This document shows, in pieces, positions 274-49,498 of a stretch of 49,541 bases of DNA. Origin of the DNA: a virus. The stretch is taken from positions 1-49,541 of the IMG/VR virus record IMGVR_UViG_3300038660_000262; one strand, written 5' to 3'. How positions within the stretch are numbered: position 1 is the first letter of the stretch; the number at the start of each line of letters is the position of its first letter. The notes under the pieces were generated by a model. The model was not told where the DNA came from, made no database searches, and was given only the letters and a program-made list of their open reading frames with translations. A program made the translations under genes and the position numbers.

Positions 274-628
274 AGCTGATCGATGATGCCCCGATCATAA
301 TCGCTTTCGGCCCAAACCGGTTTTTGAGCGATAGAGCCGGTGCTGCGGTGCGGCCCGTCACAGCAGACATTCGCTACACTTGCGCGATGTTGGTGACGAC
401 GAACTGAGATGCCAATCGCTCAGGTCATCTCCTGCGATCAGAGCCAATGCATTGTTCCGGTACAAAGGACCGTTGCCCACGAGGTTGTTGGGAAAGTTAA
501 AACTCAGGCCCACGCTCAATGGGTTCCTTCTTCGTCCGAAATAATGGTACAGAACTCTCGAGATGTTTATCCTGAGCTAGTTGGTGGAGGTGTGCCGTGA
601 CGAAAAGCAACGCGCAGAGAGCTCGCCA

Positions 629-2149
629 ATGAAGTTTCATGTACTTCCAGCGAGGAATAGCCCGCCGTCGTCCGGACGTAACGAGGTCTACCTCACTATT
701 GATCACTGGAATGACTACTCCTTTGTCACGAGCTTTGCCGTCCATGTGTTCGATGAAAACGGTACAGGCCACAGCTTGTCGAACGTAAGAATAGGTTTTG
801 TCGGTCAAACAGAAAAGATGTCAACATACTCAAATCTGGATGATACTTTCGACAGATTGGGTAAAGATTATTTCTCTCTTGGAATGGACGTCGATTATTA
901 CAAAGCCCTATTTTCTGACTTTAGTGAAGAATGGCGACGCGAGTTCCTAACGCGCATGTGCGATGTCGTTTGGGATGAAGACCTTCTTGAAGCGATAAAG
1001 ACTGAAAAGGTCTTTGAAGTCTCCCACCTCCGCTCGATTTCGATCAGTAAAATTCGTGATCAGTTCGCCAGTGTGCTCAGAGGTGACGTCTTGCTAACCA
1101 ACTTTAAGTTTGGATTCAATCTTCCACCTTCAGAAAAATTTGCCGGTTTTGATCTTTCTTTTCGGGTCAGGGCAAACTCAACACCTAGTACGAACATGCA
1201 CGCTTTGATTGGTAGAAACGGAGTTGGAAAAACAACGCTGTTGAACTCAATGGTTAAAGCCGTTGCCGATCATGTGGAAACGGAAGCGTACTTCTATACA
1301 CAGGACATCTTTGGAGAGGATGAGAAAAATAACGCGTACTTCAGCAGTTTAGTATCGGTTGCTTTCAGTGCTTTTGATCCATTTGACCTTCCCGGCGAAA
1401 GCGATGACACGCCGTACACATATATCGGAATGACGGATTACGCCGATGATGATGGCGCGATCATTAAATCAAAAGATCAGATATTTGAGGAGTTCGTCGA
1501 CGGTTTAGCTTTTTGCTTGGAAGAAAAGCGTAGGCTAAACCGGTGGATCGAAGCAATTGAAACTCTCCAAAGCGACGAAAATTTCGCCGACATGCGCCTG
1601 CTGTCACTGGTGGGGTTGCGTGGCGAAGAGCTAAGAGAAAGAGCGCTTTTTCTGATCGAAAAGATGAGTTCGGGGCATGCGGTAGTGATCCTTGCAATGA
1701 CTCTTCTGGTGGCGAAGGTCGAAGAGAAGACACTGGTGCTATTCGACGAACCAGAAACCCACCTCCACCCACCTCTACTTTCTGCCCTGATGCGAAGTCT
1801 AAGCCAACTTCTACACACAAGAAATGCTGTCGCAATAATTGCGACCCACTCCCCGGTCGTTTTGCAAGAAATTCCGAAATCCTGTGTTTGGAAGGTTTTT
1901 CGCAGCAAACTTGCATCAGAGAGAAAGCGCCCGGATACTGAGACTTTCGGTGAGAACGTAGGAGTCTTGACCCGAGACGTGTTTGGCCTCGAAGTCTCGC
2001 GATCAGGTTTTCACACAGTTCTATCGGAACTAGTCGGCCGAGGCGGGACGTACGATGAAATCATGGATATGCTAGGTGGAAATTTGGGCAATGAGGCTCG
2101 GGGAATACTCAAGGCGATGATCATCAATCGCGATGAGGAGACCACCTAA
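629..2149 (+). CDS. ptuA: Septu-like PtuA: AAA/ABC-type ATPase
   Basis: A cytosolic ATPase of the OLD/AAA_21 type, 506 residues from the chosen ATG at 629. The frame is open upstream to a TTG at 581, but the ATG gives a natural N-terminus and the upstream part looks non-coding. A Walker A motif (GRNGVGKTT) lies near residue 195, Walker B (LVLFDEPETHLHP) near 368-380, and an H-loop (IIATHSP) near 405. The next gene starts 2 nt downstream and encodes an HNH protein. This ATPase-plus-HNH order matches Septu (PtuA/PtuB), where the ATPase assembles with and controls the nuclease during phage infection. Base composition is clearly AT-richer than the phage backbone, suggesting separate transfer. It could instead be another ATPase/HNH defence pair; no reverse transcriptase is nearby, so it is not the retron form. 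Confidence 0.72.
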   Translation: MKFHVLPARNSPPSSGRNEVYLTIDHWNDYSFVTSFAVHVFDENGTGHSLSNVRIGFVGQTEKMSTYSNLDDTFDRLGKDYFSLGMDVDYYKALFSDFSEEWRREFLTRMCDVVWDEDLLEAIKTEKVFEVSHLRSISISKIRDQFASVLRGDVLLTNFKFGFNLPPSEKFAGFDLSFRVRANSTPSTNMHALIGRNGVGKTTLLNSMVKAVADHVETEAYFYTQDIFGEDEKNNAYFSSLVSVAFSAFDPFDLPGESDDTPYTYIGMTDYADDDGAIIKSKDQIFEEFVDGLAFCLEEKRRLNRWIEAIETLQSDENFADMRLLSLVGLRGEELRERALFLIEKMSSGHAVVILAMTLLVAKVEEKTLVLFDEPETHLHPPLLSALMRSLSQLLHTRNAVAIIATHSPVVLQEIPKSCVWKVFRSKLASERKRPDTETFGENVGVLTRDVFGLEVSRSGFHTVLSELVGRGGTYDEIMDMLGGNLGNEARGILKAMIINRDEETT

Positions 2150-2151
2150 AT

Positions 2152-3030
2152 ATGAAGAGATTAGACGCACCGGCATATGCGTCAATGGATCTGTACGATG
2201 AAAGCGTGGCAGGTTTAACTGGCGAGGCAATTAAAATTAAGTTTCTACACAATCGACCGACAGTCGTCGAAGCCTACCAAAGATTTGATAAAGAATCTGT
2301 GACCAAAACTTGGTGCGAGCTTCCAAGGGCCGCTCACGGTAAGCCAGAGGCGATTGTTTTAGGAACACTCTCGAAAGAAGATTTGGTGAGCCTCTACGAT
2401 GATGGTGTTGTAAAATCCAAAGGTAAACCAAGAAAGATCTACGATCAGATCAAATTGGCCGCCCACGATGAGTGTCCGTATTGCGGTGGTATGGGGGAGA
2501 TGGGGGAAGACGGCGAATTGGGCACAGCAGATCACTTTTTGCCGAAGGCATATTTTCCAACATACGCTGTCCTGCCACTAAATTTAGTTCCAGCCTGCGG
2601 AGTCTGCAACAAAGGGATGGGAGGCTCTTTTCCGACCGATCAAAACCTCCAGCCGCTGAATCCATATTTGGACGAAGACCATTTTTTTCTAGAGAAATGG
2701 ACTTCGGCATCCATTCGTCATGAGGTTCCTTTGGTCGTTGATTTTGAAGCGAGGCCACCAGTTGGTTGGCCCGAAAAGGACCAACAACGTGTCAAGGCAC
2801 ATTTCAAAGCTTGCAAGCTTGAGACACGATACCGCTCTCGAGCATGGACGGAACTCACTCCCTTGATATCTCAGCGCAAGTCCACACTGAGCAAATTTAG
2901 CTCCGAGCAGTTCCGCGAGCACCTTTTAGTGATCGCGAATGAGCCGAACTTACCGATAAATGGTTGGAAGCGGACGCTGCATTCTGCATTGGCTGCCTCG
3001 CAATGGTTCTGCGAGGCAGATTTCGCATGA
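2152..3030 (+). CDS. ptuB: Septu-like PtuB: HNH endonuclease
   Basis: A 292-residue protein whose centre is an HNH nuclease. CPYC near residue 108 and CGVCN near 149 form the zinc-binding pairs, and DHFLPK near 127 carries the catalytic Asp-His. The stretch NLVPAC preceding the second CxxC pair is typical of PtuB-like HNH proteins. The start at 2152 is 2 nt after the ptuA stop, so the two are surely co-transcribed. The expected role is nucleic-acid cleavage once the ATPase partner is triggered. Codon use and AT content match ptuA and differ from the integrase and head genes. The C-terminal 110 residues show no motif I recognise. Confidence 0.72.
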   Translation: MKRLDAPAYASMDLYDESVAGLTGEAIKIKFLHNRPTVVEAYQRFDKESVTKTWCELPRAAHGKPEAIVLGTLSKEDLVSLYDDGVVKSKGKPRKIYDQIKLAAHDECPYCGGMGEMGEDGELGTADHFLPKAYFPTYAVLPLNLVPACGVCNKGMGGSFPTDQNLQPLNPYLDEDHFFLEKWTSASIRHEVPLVVDFEARPPVGWPEKDQQRVKAHFKACKLETRYRSRAWTELTPLISQRKSTLSKFSSEQFREHLLVIANEPNLPINGWKRTLHSALAASQWFCEADFA

Positions 3031-9776: not shown

Positions 9777-9800
9777 TGTAACCTATATATATGTGTCACA
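9777..9800. promoter_or_regulatory. Palindromic operator/promoter of the RES toxin-antitoxin pair
   Basis: A 24-base dyad of the form TGT-N-AC-N2-ATATATAT-N2-GT-N-ACA, with 18 of 24 positions symmetric. It sits 12 nt before the antitoxin ATG at 9812 and contains the only TATA-like tract in the region, so promoter and operator probably coincide. Autorepression by the antitoxin is the usual arrangement. Confidence 0.5.
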
Positions 9801-9811
9801 GGAGATTTGCC

Positions 9812-10225
9812 ATGCAGTTTGCCACGATCGAACCTACCGCGTCCCGCCCGGACCTTCCCGTCATCACGGACGAGGAGGCTGCGGCCCTTGCGCGCACCAC
9901 CGTAAACCTGTTTCGCGTCTGGCAGCTCAGCGATATCGAGGCCCGCACCCTGCTGGGCGACATGGCCCAGCGCACATGGGCGCGCTGGAAGGATGGCAGC
10001 ATCGGCCGGATCGACCGTGACCTGCGGGCGCGCATGGCCATCCTGATGGGGATCCACAAAGGCCTGCGGTATCTCTTCACGGATCCCGCGCGCGGCTATG
10101 ATTGGATCAGGAAGCCAAACGCGGCCTTCAACGATCAAAGCGCGCTCGACGTCATGATGCGCGGCGAGATTACCGATCTGATCGACCTGCGCAGCTATCT
10201 GGACGCCGAACGTGGCGCGTGGTGA
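9812..10225 (+). CDS. Xre/MbcA/ParS-type antitoxin
   Basis: 137 residues from the ATG at 9812, with AGGAG 7 nt upstream (an in-frame ATG at 9791 lies inside the operator). The N-terminal half is an Xre-like helical domain (LFRVWQLSDIEARTLLGD, RTWARWKDG). The C-terminal half is the toxin-binding domain typical of RES partners: HKGLRYLFTDPARGYDWIRKPNAAFNDQSALDVMMRGEI. It should neutralise the RES toxin encoded next and repress the operon. The stop overlaps the toxin's GTG. Confidence 0.88.
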   Translation: MQFATIEPTASRPDLPVITDEEAAALARTTVNLFRVWQLSDIEARTLLGDMAQRTWARWKDGSIGRIDRDLRARMAILMGIHKGLRYLFTDPARGYDWIRKPNAAFNDQSALDVMMRGEITDLIDLRSYLDAERGAW

Positions 10226-10911
10226 CAGCACCGGTGCGTCACGTGATCTGGCCGCGCAGCGTCCGGATCATCCGCTCGATCTACCCGCCCATCGACCTGT
10301 TTGAGGATATTGCCGATCCCGCCGATTGGGAGGCATTGGCCTCCGCCGAGGCCAAGTTCAACCCACGCATCCGTGACAGTATCGGCGATCTCGCGAAGGT
10401 GCCGGTGGCCCGACGCGTCACAGGGTCCGGCGCAAGCTGGCTCATGGCCCCCTTTGTTCACTGCTCGCCGTTGCGGCCGGGGCGGTTCAGCGATGGCTCA
10501 TTCGGGCTTTACTACGCGGGCGACAGCACCGAGGTGGCGATTGCCGAGACCATCCATCACCACACGAAAACCATGCTGGCCACCGCCGAAGCCCCAGGCT
10601 GGACCTCGCAGTTCCGCGAGTTGATCGGGTCGGTCGACGCCGACATGGTTGACGTCACAGGGATGGCAGACCTGCTGGACCCCGACCACTATGGCCCCTC
10701 GCAGGTGTTCGGCGCCCAGCGCCGCGCAGCAGGCTCCAACGGCATCGCTTGGCCCAGCGTCAGGTTTTCGGGTGGCAACTGCATCGCCACATTCTGGCCG
10801 GATGTGGTGCCGATCCCGACGCAAGGCGCGCATTTTGCCTATCATTGGAGTGGAAGTGCCGTCGATTATGTCAAAAAACTGGATACAGGTCAGATCTTTG
10901 GCGTCTTTTAA
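10222..10911 (+). CDS. RES-domain toxin (NAD-degrading)
   Basis: 229 residues from GTG 10222, overlapping the antitoxin stop as GTGA. The RES family signatures are visible: RIIRSIYPP near the N-terminus, GRFSDGSFGLYYAGDSTEVAIAE in the centre (Arg, Tyr and Glu of the active site) and SVRFSGG with the late Ser. Known RES toxins degrade or phosphorolyse NAD+ and arrest growth. With the upstream antitoxin it forms a complete type II module that may stabilise the prophage or act in abortive infection. Length is normal for the family. Confidence 0.88.
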   Translation: MTAPVRHVIWPRSVRIIRSIYPPIDLFEDIADPADWEALASAEAKFNPRIRDSIGDLAKVPVARRVTGSGASWLMAPFVHCSPLRPGRFSDGSFGLYYAGDSTEVAIAETIHHHTKTMLATAEAPGWTSQFRELIGSVDADMVDVTGMADLLDPDHYGPSQVFGAQRRAAGSNGIAWPSVRFSGGNCIATFWPDVVPIPTQGAHFAYHWSGSAVDYVKKLDTGQIFGVF

Positions 10912-11076: not shown

Positions 11077-13467
11077 ATGAACCAATTTGCTCACAACAAG
11101 CTCGTCTCCTTTATTTGGTCTATCGCAGATGATTGCCTTCGCGACGTTTACGTCCGGGGAAAATATCGTGATGTCATCCTGCCGATGGTCGTGCTTCGTC
11201 GCCTTGACACACTTTTGGAACCCACCAAAGCCGAAGTTCTCGAAGAGGTCCGCTTTCAGAAAGACGAAATGAAGGCGACTGAGTTGGACGATGCGCCCCT
11301 CAAAGCGGCCTCCGGTTACGTGTTCTTCAACACCAGCAAATGGACGCTGAAGCGCCTGCACGCCACTGCGACCAACAACCAGCAAATCCTGCTGGCCAAC
11401 GTGGAGGATTATCTGAATGGCTTCAGTGACAACGTCAAAGAGATCATTTCTCGCTTCAAGCTGCTGGAGCAGATGCGGCACATGGCGGACAAACAGGTGC
11501 TGCTGGATGTACTCGAAAAGTTCATCTCACCCTACATCAACTTGACGCCGCACCAAGTCGAAGACCCCGACGGCAACACGCTCCCGGCGCTGAGCAACCT
11601 CGGCATGGGCTACGTTTTCGAAGAGTTGATCCGCAAGTTCAACGAAGAAAACAACGAAGAGGCGGGCGAACACTTTACCCCGCGCGAAGTGATCCATCTG
11701 ATGACGCACCTGATCTTTGACCCGATCAAGGATCGCCTGCCTCCAGTCATGACGATCTATGACCCTGCCTGCGGCAGCGGTGGCATGCTGACTGAATCGC
11801 AAAACTACGTCATTAACCCTGACGGCTTGATCAAGGCCACCGGAGATATTTACCTTTACGGCAAGGAAATCAACGACGAAACCTACGCGATCTGCAAATC
11901 TGATATGATGATCAAGGGCAACAACCCCGAGAACATCAGGGTCGGCTCCACCCTATCGACCGATGAATTTGCCGCGCATCGCTTCGATTTCATGCTCTCT
12001 AACCCACCCTATGGCAAAAGCTGGAACAGCGAACTCAAATACATCAAGGACGGCAAAGACGTCATCGATCCACGCTTTAAGGTCCAACTCGCTGATTACT
12101 GGGGCAATGTAGAGCCTCAAGACGCCACCCCTCGTTCCAGTGACGGCCAGTTGCTGTTCCTGATGGAGATGGTGGGCAAGATGAAGACTACCAAGGACAG
12201 CGCCATCGGCGCACGCATTGCCTCGGTGCACAACGGCTCCAGCCTGTTCACCGGCGATGCGGGCGGCGGCGAGTCTAACATCCGCCGCCATATCATCGAA
12301 AATGACATGCTGGACACCATCATCCAGCTGCCGAACAACCTATTCTATAACACCGGAATCACCACCTATATCTGGCTGCTGACCAATGCCAAACCCGCCG
12401 ACAGGCGGGGCCGCGTGCAGTTGATCGACGCCAATCTTCTGTTCCGCAAACTGCGCAAGAACCTTGGCGACAAGAATTGTGAATTCGCGCCCGAGCATAT
12501 TGATGCCATCACCAGCGCCTACCTTGCCTTCCAGCCGGTCGAACGCGCGCTGGACGGTAACGGTGATCCCACTGGCATCGCGGTGCAAATCTTTGACAAC
12601 ACCGATTTCGGTTATCACAAGGTCACTATCGAACGCCCCGACCGCCGCCGCGCCCAGTTCAGTGCCGAACGGCTGGCCCCCCTGCGCTTCGACAAATCTC
12701 TGCGGGAACCGATGGAGCATCTGTGGGAGACCCATGGCGATGCGGTTTATGAAGCGGGCTTCCTGAAAACCCAAGCCAAGGCAATTGTGGAGTGGTGTGA
12801 AGAACAAGGCATCGCCCTGAACGCCAAGGCCCGTGCCAAGCTAATCGATACCGCCAACTGGAAACGTCTGCGTGATTTGCTCGACCACGGCCACGCGCTG
12901 ATGCAAATCATCGGGACGGATGAGACCGCCGATTACAATGACTTCTGCGATCGCATGAACAAGGTGCTGAAGGCCCGCAAGATCAAGCTGTCGGCGACCG
13001 AGAAGAACGCGATCCTGAATGCCGTCAGCTGGTATGACGAACATGCAGAAAAGGTCATCGCCAAACGCGCCAAAATGACCAAACAGGAACTGGAGGATCT
13101 GACCGCCCATCTGGGCTGTGACGTGGGCGATCTGGCCGATTTTGGCTATTACCGCCAATCCGACGGTGCCTGGCTGACCTACGCGTCCAACGCAGACCTG
13201 CGCGATTCTGAGTCTGTGCCGCTGAAAGACAGCATCCACCGCTATTTCCGGGCCGAGGTGAAGCCCCATGTCGATGAGGCCTGGATCAACCTCGACACGG
13301 TCAAGATCGGGTATGAGATCAGCTTCAACAAATACTTCTACCGCCACAAACCCCTGCGGCGTCTGGACAAGGTAACGGCGGATATTCTGGCGCTGGAACA
13401 GCAGGCGGACGGGCTGATCTCGGATATTCTGGGGGTTCCGGTCGCAGCGCTGTCGGAGGTGGAATGA
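11077..13467 (+). CDS. hsdM: Type I restriction-modification system, methyltransferase subunit HsdM
   Basis: 796 residues. An N-terminal HsdM helical domain is followed by an N6-adenine methyltransferase: motif I PACGSGGM near residue 230 and motif IV NPPYG near 309. The protein is longer than the usual 500-550 residues; the C-terminal 300 residues (from about 500) are helical and probably contact HsdS and DNA, as in the larger HsdM subfamily. It modifies adenine in the bipartite site chosen by HsdS. The stop overlaps the hsdS start (ATGA), so the subunits are translationally coupled. No strong Shine-Dalgarno is seen before the ATG. The gene stands in the phage as cargo between the early operon and a terminator. 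Confidence 0.95.
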   Translation: MNQFAHNKLVSFIWSIADDCLRDVYVRGKYRDVILPMVVLRRLDTLLEPTKAEVLEEVRFQKDEMKATELDDAPLKAASGYVFFNTSKWTLKRLHATATNNQQILLANVEDYLNGFSDNVKEIISRFKLLEQMRHMADKQVLLDVLEKFISPYINLTPHQVEDPDGNTLPALSNLGMGYVFEELIRKFNEENNEEAGEHFTPREVIHLMTHLIFDPIKDRLPPVMTIYDPACGSGGMLTESQNYVINPDGLIKATGDIYLYGKEINDETYAICKSDMMIKGNNPENIRVGSTLSTDEFAAHRFDFMLSNPPYGKSWNSELKYIKDGKDVIDPRFKVQLADYWGNVEPQDATPRSSDGQLLFLMEMVGKMKTTKDSAIGARIASVHNGSSLFTGDAGGGESNIRRHIIENDMLDTIIQLPNNLFYNTGITTYIWLLTNAKPADRRGRVQLIDANLLFRKLRKNLGDKNCEFAPEHIDAITSAYLAFQPVERALDGNGDPTGIAVQIFDNTDFGYHKVTIERPDRRRAQFSAERLAPLRFDKSLREPMEHLWETHGDAVYEAGFLKTQAKAIVEWCEEQGIALNAKARAKLIDTANWKRLRDLLDHGHALMQIIGTDETADYNDFCDRMNKVLKARKIKLSATEKNAILNAVSWYDEHAEKVIAKRAKMTKQELEDLTAHLGCDVGDLADFGYYRQSDGAWLTYASNADLRDSESVPLKDSIHRYFRAEVKPHVDEAWINLDTVKIGYEISFNKYFYRHKPLRRLDKVTADILALEQQADGLISDILGVPVAALSEVE

Positions 13468-14750
13468 TGGAAGGGTTGGGGTTCAACACATACGACGCCT
13501 ACAAGGACAGCCATGCGAGCTGGCTTGGCGAAGTGCCTGCTGATTGGCAGGTCGGTCCCGGCCGGATTTGCGTATACGAGAACAAGAACAAAAACACAGG
13601 CATGAAGGAAAGCACCGTGCTTTCTCTCAGCTATGGTCGCGTCATTGTCAAAGACGAGGACAAGATGACCGGGCTGGTGCCGGAGAGTTATGAAACCTAT
13701 CAGATCGTTCAGCCCGGCGACATCATCATTCGCGGCACTGACCTTCAGAACGACGTCACCAGCCTTCGCACCGGGCTGGCCAAAGATCATGGCATCATCA
13801 CTTCGGCGTACATCAATCTTCGCCCTAAACCAAACGCCTACGCCGAGTTTCTGCACTACCTTTTGCATTCCTACGACGTGAAGAAGGTTTTCTACGGATT
13901 GGGCTCTGGCCTGCGCCAGAACCTTTCCTATGTTGACTTCAAGTATCTCACGATTCCGCTCCCCAGCCTTTCTGAACAGCGCGCCATCGTTGCGCTCCTT
14001 GATGACAAATGCGCCAAGATCGACGGGGCGGTGAAGATCAAGGAAGACCAGATCGCGCTGCTGCGCGAGCGTCGGCAAATCATCATCCAGGACGCCGTCA
14101 CCCGAGGCCTGAACCCCGACGTGCCGATGAAAGACAGCGGCGCAAGCTGGCTTGGCGAAGTGCCTGCTGATTGGCAGGTCGGTCCCGGCCGGATTTGCGT
14201 ATACGAGAACAAGAACAAAAACACAGGCATGAAGGAAAGCACCGTGCTTTCCCTCAGTTATGGTCGCGTCATTGTCAAAGACGAGGACAAGATGACCGGG
14301 CTGGTTCCCGAAAGTTACGAGACCTACCAGATCGTTCAGCCCGGCGACATCATCATTCGTGGCACCGACCTGCAGAACGACGTTACCAGCCTTCGCACTG
14401 GACTGGCCAAAGACCATGGCATCATCACTTCGGCCTATATCAATCTTCGCCCGAAGCCGAACGCCTATGCCGAGTTTCTGCACTACCTCTTGCATTCCTA
14501 CGATGTGAAGAAGGTTTTTTACGGACTGGGATCAGGCTTGCGCCAGAACCTCTCCTACGTCGACTTCAAGTATCTGACGATACCGTTGCCTAGCCTCACA
14601 GAGCAACGCGCAATAGTGGCGTTCCTCGACGAAGAGTCAGCCAAAATTGATCGCGGCATAGACATGATTAGACGCGAGATCGCCGCGCTCAAGGAATACA
14701 AAACCAGCCTGATCAACGCGGCCATCACCGGCAAGATCAAAGTCATTTAG
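13464..14750 (+). CDS. hsdS: Type I specificity subunit HsdS with duplicated identical recognition domain
   Basis: 428 residues, two target recognition domains (TRDs) separated by conserved helices. Residues 18-169 and 227-378 are identical over all 152 positions that I compared, including RTGLAKDHGIITSAYINL and SGLRQNLSYVDF. The helical regions differ: SEQRAIVALLDDKCAKID versus TEQRAIVAFLDEESAKID. Normal HsdS proteins have two different TRDs and an asymmetric target. Two equal TRDs in opposite orientation predict a symmetric bipartite target, in which both half-sites are the same sequence inverted. At DNA level the copies differ at roughly 38 of 456 positions, all synonymous. Coupled to hsdM by ATGA; hsdR follows 8 nt later. 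Confidence 0.93.
   Translation: MMEGLGFNTYDAYKDSHASWLGEVPADWQVGPGRICVYENKNKNTGMKESTVLSLSYGRVIVKDEDKMTGLVPESYETYQIVQPGDIIIRGTDLQNDVTSLRTGLAKDHGIITSAYINLRPKPNAYAEFLHYLLHSYDVKKVFYGLGSGLRQNLSYVDFKYLTIPLPSLSEQRAIVALLDDKCAKIDGAVKIKEDQIALLRERRQIIIQDAVTRGLNPDVPMKDSGASWLGEVPADWQVGPGRICVYENKNKNTGMKESTVLSLSYGRVIVKDEDKMTGLVPESYETYQIVQPGDIIIRGTDLQNDVTSLRTGLAKDHGIITSAYINLRPKPNAYAEFLHYLLHSYDVKKVFYGLGSGLRQNLSYVDFKYLTIPLPSLTEQRAIVAFLDEESAKIDRGIDMIRREIAALKEYKTSLINAAITGKIKVI
13515..14597 (+). repeat. Direct repeat encoding the two HsdS recognition domains
   Basis: Copy 1 is 13515-13970 and copy 2 is 14142-14597, offset 627 bp. The first ~105 bases are nearly identical; later parts carry frequent silent changes. 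By eye I count about 38 differences, none changing an amino acid. Confidence 0.85.
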
Positions 14751-14758
14751 GGGGCAGC

Positions 14759-17700
14759 ATGGTCAGCAACACACGCGAAATCGCACTCGAACAGGCCATT
14801 CAGAAACATCTGACTGGCCATACGGCGGAAGAGCTGGCAGGCCAACCCGCACCCGTGAGCGGTGGCCCCTATCGCATCGGCCTGCCCAGTGATTTCAACG
14901 CCCAGTTCGCCCTAGACACCGCGATGTTCTGGCAGTTTCTGCACGCGACACAGGGCAAGGAACTGGCCAAGCTGCAATCGCGCAACCCATCCGATTGGCA
15001 GGCCAAGATCCTTGAACGCTTTGATCGCATGATCAAGAAGAACGGCCTGCTGCATCTCCTGAAAAAGGGCCTCGACGTTGACGATGCGCATCTGACGCTG
15101 ATGTACCCCGCCCCGCTGGCCAGCTCTGCCGCCCGCGTGCATGAAAACTTCACCGCCAATATCTGGAGCATCACCCGCCAGGTCCGCTATAGCCAGACCA
15201 ATCCGCTGGAAGAGATCGACATGGTGCTGTTCCTGAACGGCATGCCTCTGATCACGGTGGAGTTGAAAAACGCCTGGACCGGCCAGACCGCCCGCTTTCA
15301 CGGCCAGAAGCAGTACCGCGAAGGCCGCGATGCCACCCAACCCCTGCTGCAGTTCGGCCGCGCGCTGGTGCATATGGCAGTGGACACCGACGAAGTGTTC
15401 ATGGCGACCAAGCTGGCCGGACCCTCCACCTTCTTCCTGCCGTTCAACAAGGGCCACAACAACGGCGAGGGCAACCCGCCCAATCCGAACGGCCACAAGA
15501 CCGCCTATCTGTGGGAAGAAGTGTTCCATCCCGCCAGCCTTGCGGGCATCATTCAGCATTTCGTGCTGCTGGAGGGCAAGGCCGCGGATCCGCTGGCAAA
15601 GAAATCGCTGATCTTCCCGCGCTATCAGCAGCTCGACGTCGTGCGGCGCCTGCTGGACCATGCGTCCACCAACGGTGTGGGACACAGCTATCTGATCCAG
15701 CATTCGGCGGGGTCTGGCAAATCGAATTCGATCACTTGGGCCGCGTATCAACTGATCGAAACCTATCCCCAAAGCACCAGCCTGCCCGGCGCGCGCGGTT
15801 TGGACCAGCCGCTGTTCGACTCTGTCATCGTGGTGACGGACCGCCGGTTACTGGACAAACAGCTGCGCGACAACATCAAGGATTTCTCCGAGGTCAAGAA
15901 CATAGTTGCCCCGGCGCTGCGGTCTTCCGACCTGAAATCGGCGCTGGAAAACGGCAAGAAGATCATCATCACGACGATTCAGAAGTTCCCGTTCATCATC
16001 GACGGCATTTCAGACCTGAGCGACAAGCGGTTCGCGGTGATCATCGACGAAGCGCACAGCGGCCAAAGCGGCCAGGCCCATGACAACATGAACCGTGCGA
16101 TGGGTGCAGGCGATGTGGACCCAGACGAGGACGATCCGCAAGACCGCATCCTGGCGGCGATGCAATCGCGCAAGATGCGCGGCAACGCGTCCTATCTGGC
16201 ATTTACCGCCACGCCCAAGGCGACGACGCTTGAGAAATTTGGCGAGCGGCAGCCGGATGGCAGCTTCGCGCCGTTTCACCTTTATAGCATGAAGCAGGCG
16301 ATCGAGGAGGGTTTTATCTTCAATGTGCTGGCCAACTACACGACCTACAAAAGCTATTACGAAATCCAGAAATCGGTGGAGGAGAACCCGCTTTTCGACA
16401 CCAAGAAGGCCCAGAAGAAGCTGCGCGCCTATGTCGAACGCAGCCAGCACACGATCAACACCAAGGCTGAGATCATGCTGGACCATTTCATCCCGCAGGT
16501 CGTGAACACCAAGAAACTGCGCGGTAAGGCCAAGGGGATGATCATCACCCAGAACATCGAAGCTGCGATCCGCTACTACAAGGCGGTGACCAAGCTGCTC
16601 GATGCCCAAGGGAACCCGTTCAAGGCGCTGGTCGCCTTTTCGGGCGAGAAGACCGTCGATGGCATGAAGTACACAGAGGCCGAGATGAACGGCTTCGCCG
16701 AAAGCGAAACGCGGGATAAATTCGACACGGACGAATACCGGCTGCTGATCGTGGCGAATAAGTATCTGACCGGGTTCGACCAGCCCAAACTGACCGCGAT
16801 GTACGTGGACAAGAAGTTGCAATTCGTGCTGGCCGTACAGGCGCTATCTCGTCTCAACCGTTCGGCCCCGAAGCTGGGCAAACGGACGGAGGATCTGTTC
16901 ATCCTCGACTTCTTCAACAGCGTCGATGACATTAAGACCGCCTTCGACCCCTTCTATACTGTGACCACACTGTCCGAAGCGACAGATGTCAACGTGTTGC
17001 ACGAGCTGAAGGACGCAATGGACCAAGTGGGCGTTTATGAGTGGCAGGAGGTCGAAGACTTCGTGACCCGGTATTTTGCCGGTGAAGATGCTCAGACCCT
17101 AAGCCCTGTCATCGATATTGCGGCCAATCGCTTCAACGCCGAATTAGAGCTGCCCGACCCCGAGAAGATCGACTTCAAGATCAAGGCAAAACAGTTCGTA
17201 AAGATCTATGGTCAGATGGCGTCGATCATACCATTTGAAGTGCTGGAATGGGAAAAACTTTTCTGGTTGCTGAAGTTTCTGATCCCAAAGCTCAAGATTA
17301 AGGATCCCAATCAAGACATGCTCGACGAGCTGCTGGAGGCCGTCGATCTGTCCTCGTATGGCCTGGAGCGCACCAAGCTGAACCATGAAATCGGTCTCGA
17401 CGCATCCGACACGGAACTGACGCCTCAAAATCCAAACCCGCGCGGCAACCGCGACGGTGATACGGAAACAGACCCATTGGATGAAATCATTCGCAGCTTC
17501 AACGAGCGGTGGTTTCAGGGCTGGAGCGCGACACCGGAAGAGCAACGGGTCAAATTTGTCAATATCGTCAATAGCATCCGTGCACACCCGGACTACACGG
17601 CCAAGTATGAGGACAATGCTGACCCCTTCAACCGTGGTCTAGCACTGGAGAAAATCCTGATGGACGTGATGCTGAAACGGCGGAAGGACGAACTGGAGCT

Positions 17701-17800
17701 CTATAAGCTCTTTGCGTCTGATCCAGCGTTCAAGGCGGCTTGGAGCCAGAACATCGAACAGGTGCTTAACAAGAACTTGGACAACCAACCCAGCGCCTGA
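14759..17800 (+). CDS. hsdR: Type I restriction endonuclease subunit HsdR
   Basis: 1013 residues. The N-terminal nuclease domain has the PD-(D/E)xK pattern: EEIDMVLFLNG followed by LITVELKNAW (near residues 152-172). Two RecA-like motor domains follow, with Walker A (SAGSGKS, near 315) and DEAH (VIIDEAHSGQ, near 428), and motif III-like FTATPK. The C-terminal third is helical and should dock to HsdM/HsdS. The subunit translocates DNA using ATP and cuts away from unmethylated sites. All motifs look intact, so the system should restrict. It starts 8 nt after hsdS. A hairpin follows the stop. Confidence 0.95.
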   Translation: MVSNTREIALEQAIQKHLTGHTAEELAGQPAPVSGGPYRIGLPSDFNAQFALDTAMFWQFLHATQGKELAKLQSRNPSDWQAKILERFDRMIKKNGLLHLLKKGLDVDDAHLTLMYPAPLASSAARVHENFTANIWSITRQVRYSQTNPLEEIDMVLFLNGMPLITVELKNAWTGQTARFHGQKQYREGRDATQPLLQFGRALVHMAVDTDEVFMATKLAGPSTFFLPFNKGHNNGEGNPPNPNGHKTAYLWEEVFHPASLAGIIQHFVLLEGKAADPLAKKSLIFPRYQQLDVVRRLLDHASTNGVGHSYLIQHSAGSGKSNSITWAAYQLIETYPQSTSLPGARGLDQPLFDSVIVVTDRRLLDKQLRDNIKDFSEVKNIVAPALRSSDLKSALENGKKIIITTIQKFPFIIDGISDLSDKRFAVIIDEAHSGQSGQAHDNMNRAMGAGDVDPDEDDPQDRILAAMQSRKMRGNASYLAFTATPKATTLEKFGERQPDGSFAPFHLYSMKQAIEEGFIFNVLANYTTYKSYYEIQKSVEENPLFDTKKAQKKLRAYVERSQHTINTKAEIMLDHFIPQVVNTKKLRGKAKGMIITQNIEAAIRYYKAVTKLLDAQGNPFKALVAFSGEKTVDGMKYTEAEMNGFAESETRDKFDTDEYRLLIVANKYLTGFDQPKLTAMYVDKKLQFVLAVQALSRLNRSAPKLGKRTEDLFILDFFNSVDDIKTAFDPFYTVTTLSEATDVNVLHELKDAMDQVGVYEWQEVEDFVTRYFAGEDAQTLSPVIDIAANRFNAELELPDPEKIDFKIKAKQFVKIYGQMASIIPFEVLEWEKLFWLLKFLIPKLKIKDPNQDMLDELLEAVDLSSYGLERTKLNHEIGLDASDTELTPQNPNPRGNRDGDTETDPLDEIIRSFNERWFQGWSATPEEQRVKFVNIVNSIRAHPDYTAKYEDNADPFNRGLALEKILMDVMLKRRKDELELYKLFASDPAFKAAWSQNIEQVLNKNLDNQPSA

Positions 17801-18309: not shown

Positions 18310-19572
18310 ATGGACCTTGTCTTCGCGCCAAGCGAGATCGAGACGTGGCCGATTGATCGGCTGCGGCCCTATGCTCGCAATGCCAAGATGCACGGCGACG
18401 ATCAGGTGGCGAAGATCGCCGCCAGCATGGCGAAGTTCGGCTGGACCGTGCCTTGCATGGTGGCCGACGATGGCGAGCTGATTGCTGGGCATGGCCGGGT
18501 GCTGGCGGCAACGATGCTGGGCCTGAAGGACGTGCCGGTGATCCGGCTTGGCCATCTCGACGAGGCCGAACGTCGGGCTTACCGCATCGCGGACAATAAA
18601 TTGACCGAGTTGGGCGACTGGAACGAGGCAATGCTGCGCGACGAGATCGCGGGGCTGCTGGCCGAGGATTTCGACCTGTCGTTGCTGGGCATCACCGACG
18701 AGGACCTGGATGCCCTGCTGCGTGATCCGGATGCGCTGGGCAGCGATGGGCCCATCGAGGGCGAGGATGACATTCCCGAACCGCCGGTCACGCCAGTGTC
18801 GGTTGCGGGCGATCTCTGGCAGCTGGGATCGCACCGGCTGATCTGCGGTGACAGCACCACGGCCGACGTGGTTGGCCGTCTGCTTGGCGATGCGAAACCG
18901 CTGCTGATGGTCACCGATCCGCCCTATGGCGTGGAATATGACCCGTCCTGGCGCAATCAGGCGGGCGCGGCCAAGACCAAACGCACTGGCAAGGTGCTGA
19001 ACGATGATCGTGCCGATTGGCGCGAGGCTTGGGCGCTGTTCCCCGGCGACGTCGCCTATGTCTGGCACGGTGCGCTGCACGCCGCGACCGTGGCCGAGAG
19101 CCTCGTCGCGGCGGGTTTCGCAGTCCGGTCGCAAATTATCTGGGCCAAGGATCGGCTCGTTCTCAGCCGCGGCGATTACCACTGGCAGCACGAACCCTGC
19201 TGGTATGCGGTGAAAAAGACCGGCAAGGGCCACTGGGCGGGTGACCGAAAGCAGACCACGCTGTGGCACATCTCCAGCAAGGACCAGGACACAGCCACTG
19301 TTCACGGCACCCAGAAGCCGGTCGAATGCATGCGCCGCCCGATCCTGAACAATTCCAGCCCCGGCCAAGCGGTCTTTGAACCGTTCATGGGATCCGGCAC
19401 CACGCTGATCGCCGCAGAAACCACAGGCCGGGTGTGCTTCGGGATCGAGTTGAACCCGGCTTACGTCGATGTCGCCATCGAGCGCTGGCAGCAGTTCACC
19501 TGTGCCAATGCCGTGCTGGCTGACACCGGTGAAACTTTCGCCGAGCTGAAGGCCAAGAGGCTCGCGGCATGA
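18310..19572 (+). CDS. ParB-like domain fused to DNA methyltransferase (DPPY type)
   Basis: 420 residues. The N-terminal ~130 residues are a ParB/Srx-type domain: WPIDRLRPYARNAK and ELIAGHGRVLAA, then YRIADNKLTEL. The C-terminal half is an amino-methyltransferase of the beta class: DPPYG near residue 203 precedes the SAM-binding motif FMGSGTT near 360. DPPY points to N6-adenine methylation. ParB-MTase fusions are common in phages of Rhodobacterales and are thought to modify phage DNA. The stop overlaps the next gene's start (ATGA), and the next gene is a paralogue in its N-terminal half. Confidence 0.88.
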   Translation: MDLVFAPSEIETWPIDRLRPYARNAKMHGDDQVAKIAASMAKFGWTVPCMVADDGELIAGHGRVLAATMLGLKDVPVIRLGHLDEAERRAYRIADNKLTELGDWNEAMLRDEIAGLLAEDFDLSLLGITDEDLDALLRDPDALGSDGPIEGEDDIPEPPVTPVSVAGDLWQLGSHRLICGDSTTADVVGRLLGDAKPLLMVTDPPYGVEYDPSWRNQAGAAKTKRTGKVLNDDRADWREAWALFPGDVAYVWHGALHAATVAESLVAAGFAVRSQIIWAKDRLVLSRGDYHWQHEPCWYAVKKTGKGHWAGDRKQTTLWHISSKDQDTATVHGTQKPVECMRRPILNNSSPGQAVFEPFMGSGTTLIAAETTGRVCFGIELNPAYVDVAIERWQQFTCANAVLADTGETFAELKAKRLAA

Positions 19573-20942
19573 ACGCTCCGATCCTGCCGGGCCGGATCGA
19601 GCACTGGCCGATTGACCGGCTGCGCCCTTATGCCCGTAACGCCAAGACCCACGACGCCGACCAAGTGGCAAAGATCGCCGCCAGCATGGCTGAGTTCGGT
19701 TGGACCGTCCCGGTGCTGGTGGCCGCCGACGGCGAGCTGATCGCCGGGCACGGCCGTGTCCTGGCTGCCGCCCAGCTCGGACTGCCCGAGGCCCCGGTGA
19801 TCGTACTGGGTCATCTGACCGAGGCCCAGCGCCGGGCTTATCGCATCGCCGACAACAAACTGACCGAGCTGGGTGGCTGGGACGAGGCGCTGCTCATGCA
19901 GGAATTGCAGGCGCTGCTGGCCGAGGATTTCGACCTCGGGCTGATCGGGATCCCCGAGGACGAGTTGGATGCCTTGCTGGCAGGCGCCGACGACCACCCG
20001 GCGATCTCTGACGATGCCGCCGACGCCATCCCCGGACCGCCAGCCGAACAGATCACCAAGCCGGGCGATATCTGGGTGCTGGGCAAGCATCGGCTGTGCT
20101 GTGGCGATGCCACCGATCCGGACGTCGTTGCGAAGCTGACGCAGGGCGAACAAGCGACGCTGATGTTCACCTCGCCACCCTATGCCCAGCAGCGCGACTA
20201 TGGCGCGGCCAAGGACAAGGTCGGCGATTGGGACGCATTGATGCAGGGCGTGTTCACAGCGGCCCCGGTCACGGACGACGTCCAGCTTCTGGTGAACCTT
20301 GGCCTCGTGCACCGCGACGGCGAATGGATGCCCTATTGGGAAGGATGGGTGGAATGGATGCGCACCTCTGGCTGGCGACGCTTTGGCTGGTATGTGTGGG
20401 ATCAGGGCCCGGGTCTGCCGGGCGACTGGAACGGCCGCCTGGCCCCGTCGCACGAGTTCATTTTCCACTTCAACCACAGCTCACGCAAACCACACAAAAC
20501 TGTCCCGTCCAAACACGCGGGTGTAACCCTCGGCGGCGGTGGGCTGCGCGGAGCCGACGGCACCGTTCACGCCAAGACCGGCACCGGCAACGCGATCCAA
20601 AGCCACCGCATCCCCGACAGCGTTTTCCGGATCATGCGCCACAAGGGAGGGCTGGGCGCGGCCGGATCGCATCCGGCGGTATTCCCTGTGGCGCTGGTCG
20701 AAGCAGTGCTGACTGCTTTCAGCGATCCGGGCGACCTGATCTATGAACCCTTCTGCGGCTCCGGCACCCAGTTGATCGCTGCCGAACGCGCTGGGCGAAG
20801 GTGTTTCGCGATGGAACTGGACCCGGTCTATTGCGACGTCGCCGTGCGACGGTGGGAGATAGCGACGGGGCGGATGGCCAGTCGCGCCGCCGAACAGGAC
20901 GAGGCTGAGAGCCCGGCTCCTCAAACGAGGAAACGCGCATGA
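19569..20942 (+). CDS. ParB-like domain fused to DNA methyltransferase (SPPY type)
   Basis: 457 residues. The ParB-like N-terminus closely repeats that of the preceding gene (WPIDRLRPYARNAKTH, ELIAGHGRVLAAAQLGL), so the pair arose by tandem duplication. The catalytic half differs: TSPPYAQQRDYG is a motif IV of the N4-cytosine kind, and FCGSGTQL is the SAM motif near the C-terminus. A long insertion between them (HFNHSSRKPHKTVP region) is probably the recognition segment. Together the two enzymes likely modify two different targets. It overlaps the next small gene by ATGA. Confidence 0.88.
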   Translation: MNAPILPGRIEHWPIDRLRPYARNAKTHDADQVAKIAASMAEFGWTVPVLVAADGELIAGHGRVLAAAQLGLPEAPVIVLGHLTEAQRRAYRIADNKLTELGGWDEALLMQELQALLAEDFDLGLIGIPEDELDALLAGADDHPAISDDAADAIPGPPAEQITKPGDIWVLGKHRLCCGDATDPDVVAKLTQGEQATLMFTSPPYAQQRDYGAAKDKVGDWDALMQGVFTAAPVTDDVQLLVNLGLVHRDGEWMPYWEGWVEWMRTSGWRRFGWYVWDQGPGLPGDWNGRLAPSHEFIFHFNHSSRKPHKTVPSKHAGVTLGGGGLRGADGTVHAKTGTGNAIQSHRIPDSVFRIMRHKGGLGAAGSHPAVFPVALVEAVLTAFSDPGDLIYEPFCGSGTQLIAAERAGRRCFAMELDPVYCDVAVRRWEIATGRMASRAAEQDEAESPAPQTRKRA

Positions 20943-49356: not shown

Positions 49357-49369
49357 GGGCGCGCAAGCA

Positions 49370-49396
49370 AAAGCCCGACTGTTTAGGTCGGGCTTT
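49370..49396 (-). terminator. Rho-independent terminator after tRNA-Met
   Basis: AAAGCCCGAC / GTCGGGCTTT, a perfect 10-bp stem with a 7-nt loop, followed by T residues in the tRNA direction. The phage brought this terminator together with the new tRNA 3' half. Confidence 0.8.
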
Positions 49397-49421
49397 AAGC
49401 ATTTGATTTAGCGCTGTAATT

Positions 49422-49498
<77 letters not shown>

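Follow-up and report, generated by a model that had tools for sequence, protein, structure and literature searches.

The specificity subunits (HsdS) of EcoKI, EcoR124I, MjaXI, and TTE-HsdS combine two recognition domains (TRDs) with a central and a C-terminal spacer helix, in folds represented by 1yf2, 3okg, 5ybb, and 2y7c, and belong to operons of the order hsdM-hsdS-hsdR. The HsdS studied here is alike in all these features. In the listed subunits, however, the two TRDs differ from each other, while those of the studied HsdS are identical.

Specificity units with one TRD in both halves are characteristic of EcoR124I delta50 / EcoR124INT, EcoDXXI::Tn5, NgoAV, and the CC398 half-S, with GAAN7TTC or ACCN5GGT as palindromic targets (PMC3874165, PMC3320862, PMC6158711). 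These enzymes are symmetric because one truncated S subunit dimerises, whereas in the studied HsdS the TRD is repeated within one full-length chain. NgoAV, with its fragmented hsdS, is the only natural type I system with a palindromic target that Loenen et al. name (PMC3874165). The S subunit of M.BstXI is also full-length and has two TRDs for the same half-site, CCA, which makes its target symmetric, but these TRDs are similar and not identical, and restriction is of type II (PMC3874165). Finally, Furuta et al. found one H. pylori S allele, HPV225_1544, in which TRD “e” occupies both the TRD1 and the TRD2 position as a result of movement of TRDs between positions (domain movement, DoMo); its partner is of type IIG, it is located on the host chromosome, and silent divergence of the two copies is not described in the passages on this allele (PMC3077401).

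A full-length duplication of this kind has been called unusual in a preliminary description of the locus; it is so, although HPV225_1544 (PMC3077401) and M.BstXI S (PMC3874165) are precedents. In the literature searched, we found no described type I HsdS that is full-length and has TRDs both protein-identical and silently diverged. What appears to be new here is a full-length type I HsdS of this composition carried by a phage.

Prophage setting and the type I operon

The window, i.e. the whole stretch of DNA analysed, comprises the 49,541 bases of an IMG/VR virus record and has lambdoid head and tail genes. Some stretches recur in Roseicitreum antarcticum and Paracoccus aminovorans plasmids, one of its tail proteins is 85% identical to a protein in a sampled genome, and as a whole it has the appearance of a Rhodobacterales-type prophage. 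A direct repeat at 13-113 and 49368-49498 is 84% identical over 102 bp, and its right copy is overlapped by a tRNA-Met gene on the minus strand (49422-49498). The prophage probably integrated at tRNA-Met, with the two repeats as its attachment sites.

Genes hsdM (11077-13467), hsdS (13464-14750), and hsdR (14759-17800) lie side by side on the plus strand and form a single operon. The stop codon of hsdM overlaps the start of hsdS by 4 bp (ATGATGG), and the gap between hsdS and hsdR is 8 bp. The 796 aa HsdM is the type I N6-adenine methyltransferase subunit (PF02384, E=3.5e-55; PF12161, E=1.3e-23; PADLOC MTase_I, E=2.6e-257), in which catalytic motifs DPACGSGG and NPPYG are intact. The 428 aa HsdS is the specificity subunit, matching PF01420 with two stretches and PADLOC Specificity_I (E=1.7e-117). 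The 1013 aa HsdR is the restriction and translocase subunit (PF04313, PF18766, PF04851, PF22679), with the motifs GSGKS (Walker A), DEAH, and ELKN (ELK nuclease motif). The NCBIfam matches of hsdM and hsdR score below the curated cut-offs of the models, and the matches to PADLOC type I models are strong. Because motifs for methylation, ATP hydrolysis, and nuclease activity are all present, the system looks functional and is apparently complete.

The AlphaFold2 model of HsdS has a mean pLDDT of 84.5, and its closest PDB folds are the HsdS subunits 1yf2, 3okg, and 5ybb. Both the model and the fold matches display two TRDs parted by conserved helices, and in the model the two repeat copies coincide with the two TRDs of what would be an ordinary HsdS. 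The central conserved helix, which spaces the TRDs, is encoded at 13971-14105 (residues 169-214 in the model), and the C-terminal helix, its expected partner, at 14595-14726 (residues 378-421). The latter shares no more than 59% identity with phage relatives. The protein is thus one chain with two TRDs, and not a half-HsdS with a single TRD that dimerises.

A minus-strand ORF of 385 aa (13338-14495) runs antisense across hsdS and both TRD copies. It is probably a code artefact of the GC-rich, third-position-variable hsdS, and no gene.

Further genes were noted around the operon. Near the left prophage end, a pair of genes for an AAA ATPase and an HNH-type protein (581-3030), with matches to PADLOC PtuA / PDC-M01A and PDC-M01B, would represent a second, Septu-like defence system. 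Directly upstream of hsdM, a RES-domain protein (PF08808, E=2e-31) follows a 144-aa ORF placed as an antitoxin gene would be (9791-10911), likely a RES-Xre toxin-antitoxin pair with a putative antitoxin. Downstream of hsdR, two adjoining genes for N6/N4 DNA methyltransferases (18310-20942) have similar N-terminal parts and are apparently mutual paralogues. In a related prophage-like stretch of R. antarcticum plasmid pRA03 (L032, 11540-18730), a DUF262 protein and a type ISP enzyme are located between a DNA methyltransferase and paired methyltransferases, in the place that the type I operon has in the window. When the two stretches are compared, this place looks like a site of defence swapping.

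Identical domains and their diverged DNA

TRD copy A (13515-13970, plus strand; HsdS residues 18-169) is in position 1 and is orthologous to TRD1 of a related phage, L002. Copy B (14142-14597, plus strand; residues 227-378) is in position 2 and encodes exactly the same protein sequence, so that both specificity halves carry the same TRD. The two copies differ at 38 of 456 nucleotides, distributed in 37 codons, 35 at the third and 3 at the first codon position, and none of the differences is nonsynonymous (pS = 0.36; dS about 0.48-0.50). If changes were random with respect to their coding effect, the chance of finding 0 nonsynonymous among 38 would be about 5e-25. In a comparison of 52 distinct HsdS, a non-random sample in which several were fetched for their resemblance to the window HsdS, the double TRD is unique: the window halves share 88% identity, compared to 34% in the HsdS that comes second.

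The differences between copies are unevenly distributed (Fisher p = 1.0e-5). There are none in the 107 bp of 13518-13624, and only 2 in the 161 bp 5' tract (13518-13678 in copy A and 14145-14305 in copy B, plus strand), while 36 fall within the 292 bp 3' tract (13679-13970 in A and 14306-14597 in B, plus strand), or 35 when the four-sequence alignment is used. Besides the 107 bp run, there is an uninterrupted identical run of 47 bp. Identity of the copies begins at residue 19, straight after the last difference in the flank. Because the differences are spread so unevenly, one end of the repeat was likely subjected to gene conversion, and its 5' end looks like a recent conversion tract, made in either direction, on an older repeat.

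A simple recent duplication was ruled out for the 3' two thirds, where nucleotide divergence is 12%, and is accepted for the 5' tract only. The core observation of the preliminary description, that residues 18-169 and 227-378 are the same and that all 38 nucleotide differences are synonymous, holds in full. It missed the mosaic, in which one end was probably homogenised recently and the remainder is old.

Domain movement and the origin of copy B

A related system is in phage L002, with HsdM 89% and HsdR 96% identical to those of the window; its HsdS has the same TRD in position 1 (98%) and an unrelated TRD2. In phage L009, a homologous TRD (86%) is in position 1, accompanied by a third TRD type in position 2. 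These two were the only close relatives of the TRD detected in IMG/VR, GTDB genomes, phages, plasmids, and the family of a close prophage carrier (397 genomes), and matches in genomes of a different family (around G077) did not exceed 60%. Homologues in position 1 were found in L002, L003, L004, L007, L009, L036, and L037, and more distant ones in this position are from Thiodiazotropha (70%), Synechocystis pSYSG (L007, 60%; the gene is perhaps sll8009), and Brachybacterium (53%). Homologues in position 2 are carried by the E. coli plasmids L005 and L006 (64%), by phage L028 (58%), and by L049 (50%).

The same TRD is thus in position 1 in some alleles and in position 2 in others, as in DoMo. 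Applying a threshold of at least 45% identity over at least 120 aa, we counted 73 cross-position TRD pairs among the 52 HsdS, and the comparison indicates that TRDs of this HsdS family commonly move from one position to the other. In L009, L012, and L013, phages with HsdM about 83% identical to that of the window, TRDs are different in both positions while HsdS flanks are nearly identical, a pattern that, on these alignments, is one of active TRD shuffling. Since TRDs often change position in this family, an allele with a doubled TRD is an expected product of shuffling.

Phylogenetic information on copy B comes mainly from the 3' tract. Over 13679-13970, copy A differs from L002 TRD1 at 23 sites and from copy B at 35, and B differs from L002 at 40; correspondingly, dS is 0.67 between A and B and 0.37 between A and L002. 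Outside the 5' tract, nine informative sites group A with L002 and leave B outside, compared to two and one for the other topologies. This suggests that copy B predates the split of the two phages, or that it derives from another allele. In the TRD flanks, a candidate place of recombination, the motifs KDSG/KDSH and EQRAIVAFLD are shared, but no donor was among the sampled alleles, and the trees do not separate the three topologies. A search of IMG/VR, plasmids, and the 397 genomes of the carrier family disclosed neither a donor of copy B nor a closer relative of copy B or of the C-terminal helix.

The explanation that we consider probable, and the best overall, is that hsdS of an apparently complete type I system on a Rhodobacterales-type prophage acquired one TRD in both positions by shuffling, that copy B is the older or separately acquired one, and that the target is palindromic. 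Domain shuffling among hsdS alleles would have brought the same TRD into both positions, with B not being a recent in-place duplicate of A. Gene conversion, in one direction or the other, would later have equalised the first ~160 bp of A and B, and strong purifying selection on each copy would hold the TRD protein constant.

As an alternative, TRD1 could have been copied over TRD2 in its own lineage long ago, followed by silent drift under purifying selection and a later conversion of the 5' part. The AU test on A, B, L002, and L009 keeps all three trees compatible, including the one joining A and B (p = 0.37), and the two copies agree at 5/5 informative sites of the 5' tract. Copy B also starts with a flank of the position-1 type, ASWLGEVPADW, and not with the flank IDWIGQIPAHW that its relatives have in position 2, but this identity could stem from the conversion tract itself. 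We hold old in-place duplication to be unlikely, as copy A is nearer to L002 TRD1 than to copy B over the 3' tract and the A-B dS is well over that between A and L002.

Constraint on the domain and the predicted target

Copies A and B and the L002 TRD are protein-identical over residues 46-169; silent differences among them number 24 to 40 in residues 54-169. In the latter segment, A and L002 differ by 24 silent changes and A and B by 36-37, with no amino acid change in either pair. For a tree of three branches, with a synonymous length of about 0.92 and 0 nonsynonymous changes, the rough 95% upper limit of dN/dS is about 0.012, an estimate based on pairwise counts on few sequences. Between the window and L002, dS and dN are 0.70 and 0.072 for HsdM, and 0.52 and 0.023 for HsdR. 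In these two and two neighbouring genes, none of about 1,985 overlapping stretches of 116 codons is free of amino acid changes. Other TRD pairs of the same HsdS family, at dS of 0.45-0.71, have 24-43 nonsynonymous differences. The TRD itself is able to change, because its dN relative to L009 is about 0.12 (dS about 1.3, near saturation). The constraint indicated by these comparisons is real, tighter than expected, and acting on single copies too.

Selection could in principle maintain identity of A and B as a pair, if symmetry of the target is beneficial. The lack of amino acid differences in 152 residues at dS of about 0.48, where comparable TRD pairs have dozens, agrees with this, as does the absence of any change-free stretch in HsdM, HsdR, and the two neighbours. 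However, L002 carries the TRD once and is equally protein-identical over residues 46-169 in spite of silent divergence, so that symmetry is not needed and concerted selection on the pair is improbable. Because the single copy behaves in the same way, what is constrained is each TRD by itself and not the likeness of two copies. The TRD alignment and dN/dS calculation proposed in the preliminary description gave 0 nonsynonymous changes and dN/dS below about 0.012, and the same TRD was found singly in position 1 of L002. Long-lasting purifying selection on the TRD protein and a history of exchange between alleles are supported, and so, as a prediction, is the palindromic split target that the description put forward. 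Its proposal that selection keeps both TRDs the same is, as phrased, not borne out, given the single TRD of L002, and its premise that old drift must alter amino acids is refuted for this TRD, since A, B, and L002 are silently diverged with identical protein over residues 46-169.

Still less probable is an assembly artefact, in which hsdS genes of two strains would be joined in a chimeric contig, or collapsed reads would give a false repeat. The window is an IMG/VR record without available reads, and an identical tract of 107 bp can lead short-read assembly astray. A false duplicate is nevertheless expected to be identical, while the copies are 8% diverged by silent changes only; the ORF, both helices, and the junctions of hsdM, hsdS, and hsdR are intact, and a chimera would presuppose another strain in which this TRD occupies position 2. 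Selection of the silent differences as a barrier to recombination between the repeats can be dismissed almost entirely: silent-only changes do reduce homology between the copies, but identical runs of 107 bp and 47 bp are kept, the longer one being strongly contrary to the idea, and the same kind of silent divergence exists between TRDs of different phages.

Regarding the target, TRDs of HsdS are mutually inverted; when a TRD changes position, it recognises its half-site as the reverse complement (PMC3983042, PMC3874165). TRDs that are virtually identical in positions 1 and 2 in S. aureus both read AGG (PMC5399793), a symmetric EcoR124I engineered from one TRD recognises GAAN7TTC and has both methyltransferase and endonuclease activity (PMC3320862), and the CC398 half-S reads ACCN5GGT (PMC6158711). 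An unassigned palindromic type I-like motif, RGAN7TCY, has been listed for H. pylori F32 (PMC3983042). Because the TRDs face DNA in opposite orientations and are identical here, the window enzyme, by analogy, most likely reads a palindromic split target, composed of a half-site, an N-spacer, and the reverse complement of the half-site. Spacer length in these families is set by the helices between TRDs. None of the homologues found has an assigned half-site, and in the literature searched the motifs listed for the Synechocystis strain are not tied to the pSYSG gene. Methylation would be performed by M2S, while R2M2S would check the target before cutting, and the enzyme would in this way protect the lysogen against foreign DNA.

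With a shared S subunit, type I specificity ought to be free to change. We tentatively put forward that the type I enzyme encoded in the window is a natural, full-length one reading a palindromic split target, and that its TRD protein has been frozen (dN/dS below about 0.012 across three lineages) although the same TRD class tolerates change elsewhere, the exact specificity being under exceptional selection. Possibly, this is because the phage must match the methylation of its hosts or of competing phages. The absence of amino acid changes at dS of about 0.4-0.8 in any case poses a testable question, namely what keeps the TRD constant. If the reading favoured above is true, a full-length HsdS with a doubled TRD would be a clean substrate for measuring the half-site of one TRD, and symmetric type I enzymes would prove to have shuffling, besides truncation, as a natural origin.
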